Source: a virus. From it: a stretch of 28,124 nucleotides of DNA. The position numbers and the translations under genes were made by a program. The stretch is taken from positions 1-28,124 of the IMG/VR virus record IMGVR_UViG_3300018025_000016; one strand, written 5' to 3'. How positions within the stretch are numbered: position 1 is the stretch's first letter; each line of letters begins with the position of its first letter. Of this stretch, positions 7,927 to 28,124 are shown one piece after another. Below the pieces are notes generated by a model, which saw nothing but the letters and a program-made list of their open reading frames with translations, was not told the DNA's origin and made no database searches.

Positions 7927-8060
7927 AGCCACCATTATATTATTATATCCTTTATTTGAAAGGGATGAAATAGGAGGTCTAAAAGTAATTGCAAGTTTAT
8001 GTTGATATAAATGGAGGACTAAATTATAATCCTGGTTATCAAAACTTAGGAGTATTTTCT

Positions 8061-8645
8061 ATGTCTGAAATTATCAAAACTTGCAAAGTCCATGGCCCAT
8101 TAACTATTGACCAGGTCTCAGTTAACCCACGGAAAGATAGACCTAATGGAAAGGGCGAAATTAGATGTTTGCAGTGCAAAAGTGCCATTGCTGCTAGAGC
8201 ATATGAAAAAAGAAAGACAATTTTTATTGAAACTGCGACTGACGAAGAAAAGAAAGGGGTCAGAGATGAGATTAATGCAAAGGTGAGAGCAGATAGACTG
8301 ATTGATCCAGAAAAATATCGTAATCAAGAAAATAAAAAGAGACAAAAGAATTTAGAGCGCTCAAGAAAGTTAGACATCTTAAAAAAGTACAATTTCACAG
8401 AAAAGCAATATGATGACATGCTTGAGACTCAGGGTCATAGATGCGCAATATGCAAAGAATATGAAACTCGAAAGAGCAGAACTCCTGGAGAAATATCTAG
8501 GCTTGCTGTAGATCACTGCCATAAAACGGGTAAAGTTAGAGCTTTTTTATGTCACAAATGCAATCAGTTCATTGGATTCTGCAATGAGGATGAAAATATA
8601 TTGATGGAAGGCATAATTTATCTTAGGAAACACAACACAGAATGA
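8061..8645 (+). CDS. HNH endonuclease, recombination endonuclease VII family
   Basis: This 194-aa protein carries the endonuclease VII signature: a CxxC zinc pair (C128, C131), the catalytic motif VDHCHKTGKVR (150-160; D151, H152, H154), and a second CxxC (C164, C167) followed by Asn. A further CxxC at C36/C39 with upstream C8/H11 suggests an N-terminal zinc knuckle. Between them is a long charged helix. T4 endonuclease VII resolves branched DNA, but free-standing members in late operons are often homing-type. ATG 8061 is chosen because AGGAG (8048-8052) is well placed; the open frame runs back to a TTG at 7989. The gene splits the gp4/gp10-like pair and looks AT-richer than its neighbours, both signs of insertion. 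Its stop overlaps the next start (ATGA). Confidence 0.9.
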   Translation: MSEIIKTCKVHGPLTIDQVSVNPRKDRPNGKGEIRCLQCKSAIAARAYEKRKTIFIETATDEEKKGVRDEINAKVRADRLIDPEKYRNQENKKRQKNLERSRKLDILKKYNFTEKQYDDMLETQGHRCAICKEYETRKSRTPGEISRLAVDHCHKTGKVRAFLCHKCNQFIGFCNEDENILMEGIIYLRKHNTE

Positions 8646-25586: not shown

Positions 25587-25872
25587 GCTTCACCCACATT
25601 TCTTTCTTTCCATCCGACAAAACTTTAACATCGGGATGGGCATAGCAATTCCCCATGAATTCAATGGCTGCAATGAATCCATCTTTCTCAAATTCTTCTT
25701 TTGTTGACAAGTTTATCCAATCCATAAAGAACTCACTATTTACAGGTCTTTTTGGATTGATGACCATTTTATATTTTTTGACAAAATATTTACCAGGTTG
25801 GCACATATCAAGCATGGTCATCCATTCGGTTATTTTTGGCAATGTAATGTATAAAATGACTTCGTGTTTCAT
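25576..25872 (-). CDS. Hypothetical protein of the accessory operon
   Basis: This 98-aa protein has a beta-like N-terminus (MKHEVILYITLPKITEW), a basic middle (YFVKKYKMVINPKRPV) and a C-terminal helix with acidic residues (STKEEFEKDGFIAAIEFMGN). No membrane segment or catalytic motif is seen. Its start overlaps the stop of the upstream frame as ATGA. The function is unknown. Confidence 0.62.
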   Translation of the reverse strand: MKHEVILYITLPKITEWMTMLDMCQPGKYFVKKYKMVINPKRPVNSEFFMDWINLSTKEEFEKDGFIAAIEFMGNCYAHPDVKVLSDGKKEMWVKHEA

Positions 25873-26021
25873 TCGGATTCCTTATTAGCTATTGCTTCAA
25901 GCAAGGTTTCATAACAAGAATGACGCGCAGCCAATAATCCACGATCTAATCCTTTTTTTCCCCAAAAACTATCATATACAAATGAAGTCACAGCACCGCG
26001 ACCCGTTTCAATGTCATACAT
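25869..26021 (-). CDS. Small hypothetical protein, probably shortened at its N-terminus by the IS remnant
   Basis: This 50-aa frame starts at ATG 26021, just 13 bases downstream of the right end of an IS200/IS605-type remnant, and reads MYDIETGRGAVTSFVYDSFW before a helical end (ARHSCYETLLEAIANKE). No good Shine-Dalgarno precedes it, and the frame stays open back through the IS end, so the original gene probably began further upstream and lost its start to the insertion. It may be expressed only by read-through coupling. No family is recognised. Confidence 0.5.
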   Translation of the reverse strand: MYDIETGRGAVTSFVYDSFWGKKGLDRGLLAARHSCYETLLEAIANKESE

Positions 26022-26215
26022 CCGTATAACATGTTGACATCCTCCCCGCCATGAATGACGAGGATTCCTCTGATGCCGCCCCAAAGGGCTGCACTGAGCT
26101 GGTTCCTGCTGCTGGCGCTCCTAGGGGCAGCACTCACTTCACAGGCTAACCGGGCGTGTCCCGCCCTTAATATATTTAATGCGGCGACCAAGTCTGCGTG
26201 TTCATTATTACTCAT
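25988..26215 (-). pseudogene. tnpB: C-terminal remnant of a TnpB (IS200/IS605 OrfB) gene
   Basis: The frame from ATG 26215 reads NNEHADLVAALNILRAGHAR and then LACEV. This is the end of the TnpB RuvC domain, where the pattern HADxxAAxNIL carries the last catalytic Asp, followed by the usual A/G-rich C-terminal end. The rest of TnpB (zinc finger, other RuvC parts, N-terminal domain) is missing. In-frame stop TGA lies just upstream, and the frame runs past the element's right end to 25988, so it cannot make a nuclease. The sequence is clearly GC-richer than its AT-rich surroundings, a sign of foreign origin. In ORF terms it starts in a TGATG overlap with the 57-aa gene. Confidence 0.75.
26034..26212 (-). 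mobile_element. Right-end remnant of an IS200/IS605-family element with candidate omega RNA
   Basis: On the minus strand the element ends GGAGGATGTCAA; the final TCAA is at 26034-26037. This is the right-end sequence typical of OrfB-carrying IS200/IS605 elements. A hairpin ATCCTC/GAGGAT at 26039-26065 precedes it. Further stems lie upstream: GCCC/GGGC (26078-26081 with 26086-26089), GCTGC/GCAGC (26108-26112 with 26127-26131) and GGGCG/CGCCC (26152-26156 with 26162-26166). In active elements this 3' part is transcribed as the omega (re) RNA scaffold, and the 16-20 bases after the end act as guide; here that would be 26014-26033. The left end, TnpA and most of TnpB are absent. Confidence 0.72.
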
Positions 26216-26388
26216 CAATACTCAACCGTCTCAATTCTTACGCATCTAGCCATATCAAAATACTTTTCATCATACATTTCTGAAATCAAATGTACTTGGC
26301 AATCTTCCAAAGTATTAAACTCTATGCTTCCAAGTAAATTAATATTGTTAAGCACAAGCGCATAAGTGATTAATGTGGTTGCTATCAT
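26215..26388 (-). CDS. 57-aa hypothetical protein, ends at the IS remnant
   Basis: ATG 26388 is preceded by TTGAGGTAGAC, a good ribosome binding site formed by the end of the upstream gene. The product starts with a mildly hydrophobic stretch (MIATTLITYALVLNNINLLG), then EDCQVHLISEMYDEKYFDMA and ends in RIETVEY. The stop TGA (26215-26217) lies at the left edge of the TnpB remnant, so the gene's original C-terminus may have been cut by the insertion. No family is recognised. Confidence 0.6.
   Translation of the reverse strand: MIATTLITYALVLNNINLLGSIEFNTLEDCQVHLISEMYDEKYFDMARCVRIETVEY

Positions 26389-27985: not shown

Positions 27986-28124
<139 letters not shown>

Follow-up and report, generated by a model that had tools for sequence, protein, structure and literature searches.

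Among the small genes of a phage, an IS200/IS605-type tnpB element has left its 3′ end, a short insert that carries what is, judged by its sequence and predicted fold, a complete omega-RNA (reRNA) scaffold. It is likely the relic of a recent deletion in an active element, with the guide RNA scaffold kept intact and possibly usable. The DNA analysed, called the window throughout, is virus record IMGVR_UViG_3300018025_000016 (28,124 bp), whose genes include a P22-like portal gene and a terminase gene, and the insert sits on its minus strand.

Identity and Borders of the Remnant

The remnant occupies positions 26034-26206 (minus strand) and consists of the last ~30 TnpB codons and the right end of the element. 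The codons at 26117-26206 (minus strand; NEHADLVAALNILRAGHARLACEVSAAP) correspond to residues 358-387 of a 401-residue Shewanella TnpB with 67% identity (tblastn with P0001, E 6.8e-9). At the DNA level, tnpB 3′ ends on Shewanella plasmids are 75% identical over 185 bp, or 86% of the query (blastn, E 1e-22), and plasmids of Proteus and Providencia give similar blastn matches; annotated phage records gave no DNA match to the remnant. With a GC content of 57% against 30-38% around it, the remnant forms a GC island. The right end, GGAGGATGTCAA, stops precisely at 26034 and has the subterminal hairpin and TCAA closure of IS200/IS605 right ends, together with the TnpB C-terminal sequence that belongs to this part of such elements. 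The terminal hairpin and transposon right end (CGTCATTCATGGCGGGGAGGATGTCAA) can be read directly at 26034-26060 (minus strand). The initial annotation of this DNA had noticed a C-terminal TnpB phrase, a hairpin-dense GC-rich stretch and a right end, all of which are borne out by tblastn, blastn, the GC island and a covariance model.

The interval proposed for the element, 26034-26215, holds as far as 26206. The remaining bases, 26207-26215 (ATGAGTAAT), are phage sequence and form the start of a small phage ORF, with the TnpB homology starting at about 26206-26203. That the rest of the element is gone was confirmed, since no left end, tnpA or remaining part of tnpB was found in the window, and tblastn with the full Shewanella TnpB detected no other TnpB there. 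Of the intact tnpB that a whole IS200/IS605 element contains, ~30 codons remain.

Joining the flanks suggests that the insert is positioned within the small phage ORF. The start of this interrupted ORF (ATGAGTAATAAT, 26204-26215, minus strand) overlaps the stop of the upstream gene, and its downstream part (HVIRMYDIETGRGAVTSFVYDSFWGKKGLDRGLL..., 25869-26033, minus strand) has no Pfam or PHROG match. Flanks joined at cut 9, 12, 15 or 18 read MSN(N)(E)HVIRMYDIETGRGAV... in frame, and joining behind ATGAGTAAT(AAT)(GAA) gives the in-frame small ORF MSNNEHVIRMYDIETGRGAV..., an outcome with a one in three chance of being in frame. As it stands, the insert puts the small ORF out of frame. The TnpB codons are fused in frame to the phage ATG at 26215, and the fused ORF of phage start and TnpB codons spans 25988-26218.

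The remnant runs in the same direction as the minus-strand genes, as had been pointed out, and phage DNA follows directly after the TCAA. According to the reRNA rule of IS200/IS605 elements (PMC8612924), this DNA (CATGTTATACGGATGTATGA, 26014-26033, minus strand) would be the guide, if the RNA is transcribed and processed as in the family.

On the other side, the element has no recognizable end. Left ends of this clade begin GTGCGCG(A/G)CAAGCCCC a few bases behind YTGAC; in a tally of left ends the motif place is mostly TTGAC or CTGAC, and the rest are mostly close variants. Both the left-end hairpin and YTGAC are absent beside the window remnant, which is therefore not a whole element; the phage gene is followed by TnpB codons without an intervening left-end hairpin, and the left-end motif is missing from the window and from its relatives. 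A TTGAT word at 26214-26218 (minus strand), one base off YTGAC, lies ~10 nt before the TnpB homology and 185 nt before the right end. It is probably there by chance, and its presence is not significant because YTGAN words are frequent in this region (six in 420 nt). Lacking a left end, the stub is unable to move on its own.

Sequence and Fold of the Scaffold

Relatives of the remnant were gathered from bacteria and viruses via a conserved 34-base hairpin pattern, and 28 of them, with the window excluded, were aligned to build covariance model R1. The model matches 26034-26168 (minus strand) over its full length (positions 1-149 of 149) with 104.8 bits. The tnpB-linked copies in the same search range from 79 (L046) to 181 bits (L087), which includes this score; for L122, the Shewanella copy and one of the 28 training sequences, the value is 151 bits. 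The earlier remark that what is left is close to an omega RNA in size is upheld by this full-length match, the remnant having the size and shape of a complete scaffold. The scaffold is composed of hairpin 1 (GGGCG/CGCCC), a nested stem GGTT..AACC with an inner stem GTGCT/AGCGC, a middle hairpin that is remodelled, and the terminal hairpin.

The model built from relatives supports the fold. Free-energy folding of the remnant is unremarkable and uninformative (z -1.1), and an Rfam search returned only HgcC (RF00062) at 20.9 bits, below its gathering threshold of 50, which places the remnant outside that family. The sub-threshold match to HgcC spans window positions 26024-26140. HgcC itself may be the right-end RNA of an IS200/IS605-type element.

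A separate pair test used a structure of 40 pairs predicted from 37 relatives alone. In the window, 32 of the 40 pairs can be aligned, and all 32 are standard pairs at 22-25% divergence. The window differs from each of six near relatives by 28-34 substitutions, and two to three pairs have changed on both sides in a compensatory manner; examples are a C-G pair in the inner stem where relatives have G-C or A-T, and an A-T pair in the terminal hairpin where they have G-C or C-G. When substitutions are placed at random, a mean of 20-22 pairs is kept and none of 5000 trials reaches 32; when random bases are put at the same positions, the mean is 27-28 pairs (P at most 0.0036). The eight pairs that cannot be aligned belong to the middle hairpin. 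Relatives vary in this hairpin too, and its remodelling in the window may be a sign of partial degradation of the scaffold. Apart from this hairpin, the conserved scaffold sequence and fold of an omega RNA are present. The pair test suggests that the scaffold was functional until recently; with the nearest relative collected at only ~78% identity, it is silent on whether selection went on once the element had been truncated.

Comparison with Known Systems

In this family, TnpB is able to process its own message and so free the omega RNA (PMC10278001). The RNA ends in ~16 nt read from flanking DNA, which direct cleavage to sites beside a target motif (PMC8612924). The remnant resembles the ISDra2 TnpB reRNA and other IS200/IS605 omega RNAs in that the scaffold is formed by the tnpB 3′ end and the right end, the guide lies in the flanking DNA and the scaffold has a terminal hairpin (PMC8612924; PMC10278001). 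Its length of 135 nt compares with ~150 nt, including the guide, for the ISDra2 reRNA and 106 nt for the AmaTnpB scaffold (PMC8612924; PMC10278001). Unlike ISDra2-type systems, the window has no tnpB in cis, no catalytic domain, no left end and no left-flank motif, and its RNA is predicted from the sequence.

In the PATE-like element of Halanaerobium hydrogeniformans, 28 nt of left end with a hairpin are followed by the 3′-terminal 58 nt of tnpB and a complete right end of 160 nt (PMC7290912). The window remnant has the same right-side deletion architecture, but the Halanaerobium element kept its left end and is potentially movable, whereas the window copy has none (PMC7290912). Short elements of the same or sister clades in the bacterium BMS3Bbin13 (L157, L175, L188, L194, L222) and in virus contigs (L035, L072, L012) also carry the scaffold without TnpB, but unlike the window copy they have the left-end hairpin, which in BMS3Bbin13 follows YTGAC. 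The terminal GGGGAGGA.GTCA hairpin of the window is like that of HgcC RNA (RF00062), while several consensus pairs of HgcC are not formed in the window. A further parallel is found in the TldR proteins, TnpB-derived repressors borne by phages, which are likewise a case of a phage-carried TnpB-family guide RNA outside the normal transposon cycle; in TldR the protein is kept, while the window has the RNA part only (PMC13418256).

Stand-Alone Scaffolds in Other Genomes

Stand-alone right ends are not unusual, and the window stub is one of many. A degenerate right-end pattern occurs in at least 119 stretches of virus contigs. The matches listed represent 113 distinct sites, 23 of which lie too near a contig end, leaving 90 that are testable. 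Among these listed matches, a TnpB of at least 250 residues is adjacent at 64 of the 90 sites, a C-terminal TnpB fragment at 12 and none at 14, so that 26 of the 90 (29%) have only a fragment or no TnpB beside them. The fragments are short: 11 of the 12 among the matches listed have 85 residues or fewer, whereas breakage spread evenly over the scored range would put 28% in that class (P about 7e-6). In bacterial genomes, breakpoints concentrate at TnpB residues 353-370, immediately ahead of the scaffold, although five of these copies belong to a single genome, that of BMS3Bbin13. The 5′ border of the window remnant coincides with the region where other truncated copies are broken.

Short elements made of a left end and a scaffold are amplified in at least one bacterium. 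The draft genome of BMS3Bbin13 has 23 model matches, and its five elements named above have YTGAC, the left-end hairpin, the scaffold and the right end, with no TnpB, at different sites. This genome has two scaffold versions with compensated differences and nearly the same left end, as if the scaffolds had been swapped through recombination. The three virus contigs mentioned with it share the plan of left end plus scaffold. L087 contains both a full and a scaffold-only copy, with identical scaffolds, and another copy (L132) is truncated and has a damaged right end. Two copies of a ~120-bp hairpin element with stand-alone right ends are present in L016, and one stand-alone right-end site is common to five virus contigs (L027, L038, L060, L066, L078). 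As a group, the stand-alone copies are no better preserved than tnpB-linked copies, with a mean of 0.82 broken pairs of 40 against 0.35 (P 0.055).

Phage Relatives and a Second Site

A terminase search recovered seven related contigs: six, with 94-100% DNA identity where they align, come from nearly the same phage, and the seventh is distant. An empty site is not visible in these relatives because none of the seven covers the window from 21.4 to 28.1 kb; no TnpB was found in them. Of the follow-up searches suggested in the initial annotation, the one for an empty site yielded no empty-site phage, and the one guide-side 20-mer tested is in no other virus contig. The one for matching host copies gave, in 369 genomes of the class, best matches of 77-88% identity over part of the query only. 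The exact right-end 27-mer is absent from virus contigs. Kin were also sought through other genes: the single-stranded-DNA-binding-like gene led to one contig with an unrelated context, which was rejected, as were two chance matches to the downstream ORF on checking, and the 98-aa gene led to none.

Contig G002 (L262) shares 9.1 kb with the window at 99.4% identity. It terminates in CATGGCGGGGAGGATGTCAA and then a different flank (L262:14952-14971), 5.8 kb past the terminase end of the window. The TGGCGGGGAGG right-end variant (TGGCG) is found in the window only, among 243 distinct right ends collected, a count from which the G002 right end was left out for its shortness. Because the contig breaks off within this end, the parent element is not in view. 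This is likely a second insertion of the same element in the phage lineage, with the contig broken there as contigs are at repeats. Since the same right-end variant stands at another place in a near-identical phage, the parent element is probably mobile in this lineage and a copy of it probably still circulates. The G002 end is the best evidence for a mobile parent copy that could supply TnpB, and it rests on 20 bases.

Origin of the Remnant and Its Possible Role

The following history appears likely. An IS200/IS605-type element of the proteobacterial TnpB clade, with a right end closing in GGAGGANGTCAA and YTGAC at its left flank, would have landed in a small gene of a podovirus-like phage, where a deletion would later have removed the left end, any tnpA and ~90% of tnpB. 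In a minus-strand transcript, the scaffold would run from ~26168 to 26034 and the guide from 26033 to ~26014, with transcription and processing following the rules of the family. The fold would be intact mainly because the deletion was recent, and a mobile parent copy would probably still be circulating in the phage lineage. The word recent rests on 20 bases at one contig end, because the nearest relative is only ~78% identical. The RNA would be inert without a cognate TnpB; if TnpB came from the parent copy, carried either by the same phage or by a co-infecting one, the RNA could load it and direct the cutting of phage genomes with the uninterrupted gene, for which a suitable motif is required. 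We infer both this supply of TnpB and the target in phages with the uninterrupted gene. The history overlaps with several readings of the present role, of which plain inertness is the commonest present state, at about an even chance, and use in trans is unlikely.

A decay remnant with no present or potential role, whose fold was inherited and will erode, would have the same history and differs in denying any use in trans; we give it roughly one chance in two. It is the simplest account, and it agrees with the missing left end and protein, with the small ORF thrown out of frame and with the existence of truncated copies with damaged right ends such as L132, though sequence cannot separate it from a recent relic with a usable scaffold. 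A further reading, which extends a possibility raised in the initial annotation, is a stand-alone guide RNA that is retained, transcribed with the phage operon and used in trans by a TnpB of the host or of the parent copy, either cutting empty-site phages or spreading the stub via repair. The complete scaffold without a broken pair speaks for such retention, as do the frequency of stand-alone scaffolds (26 of 90 virus sites among the matches listed), the clustering of truncation points just 5′ of the scaffold in viruses and also in genomes, and the second copy in the lineage, which could supply TnpB; the intact fold is equally expected under selection on a stand-alone RNA. However, no TnpB was found in the window or the seven contigs, nor was an empty site or another virus contig with the tested 20-mer, and YTGAC is lacking at the left border. 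In addition, the slight excess of broken pairs in stand-alone copies (P 0.055) is the reverse of special preservation, and truncations would cluster in this way as well if selection kept short elements only for their movable ends. Retention for use in trans is unlikely on this balance, and the earlier interpretation as a whole is partly supported.

Two readings give the insert another function. As a non-autonomous mobile element of the PATE/MITE type, it would comprise left end, scaffold and right end and be moved by TnpA in trans. Same-clade examples exist in BMS3Bbin13 and alike in L035, L072 and L012, and G002 provides a second site in the phage lineage, but the window copy has one end only, without the left-end hairpin, so that this reading is largely refuted for it and very improbable. 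The insert could also be a domesticated leader that gives a hairpin or ribosome-binding site to the downstream phage ORF, as GGAGG stands 8 nt upstream of an ATG at 26032. However, this ATG opens 14 codons only, the ATG of MYDIETGRG is ~19 nt from GGAGG, and GGAGG is part of the right end and fixed in the family. The ribosome-binding-site role was rejected on the short ORF and the family-fixed GGAGG, and a leader function of any kind has hardly any likelihood.

For the preferred reading, a deletion relic with a possibly usable scaffold, a dedicated function of the window stub is speculative. Should stand-alone omega RNAs prove usable in trans, relics of transposons would be a guide-RNA reservoir aimed at transposon-free sites rather than junk, and phages could turn such guide RNAs on each other. 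In a stronger and quite doubtful form of this idea, phages keep tnpB-less omega RNAs as trans guides, the parent IS605-type copy supplies TnpB and rivals with the uninterrupted site are cut, making a split minimal homing or exclusion system. The survey, with 29% of testable virus right-end sites among the matches listed lacking an adjacent TnpB and with truncations at the 5′ edge of the scaffold, provides many ready examples for testing.

Other Features of the Phage Lineage

An endonuclease VII/HNH-type gene at 7989-8645 is present in G002 and G003 and absent from the otherwise collinear G006, which has ~52 bp instead (window 7927-8641). This locus in the structural gene cluster looks like a presence/absence polymorphism of the homing-endonuclease type. 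At the contig end, the window has ~20.7 copies of the hexanucleotide repeat GCCAGA (28001-28124), which is probably the reason that the assembly stops there.
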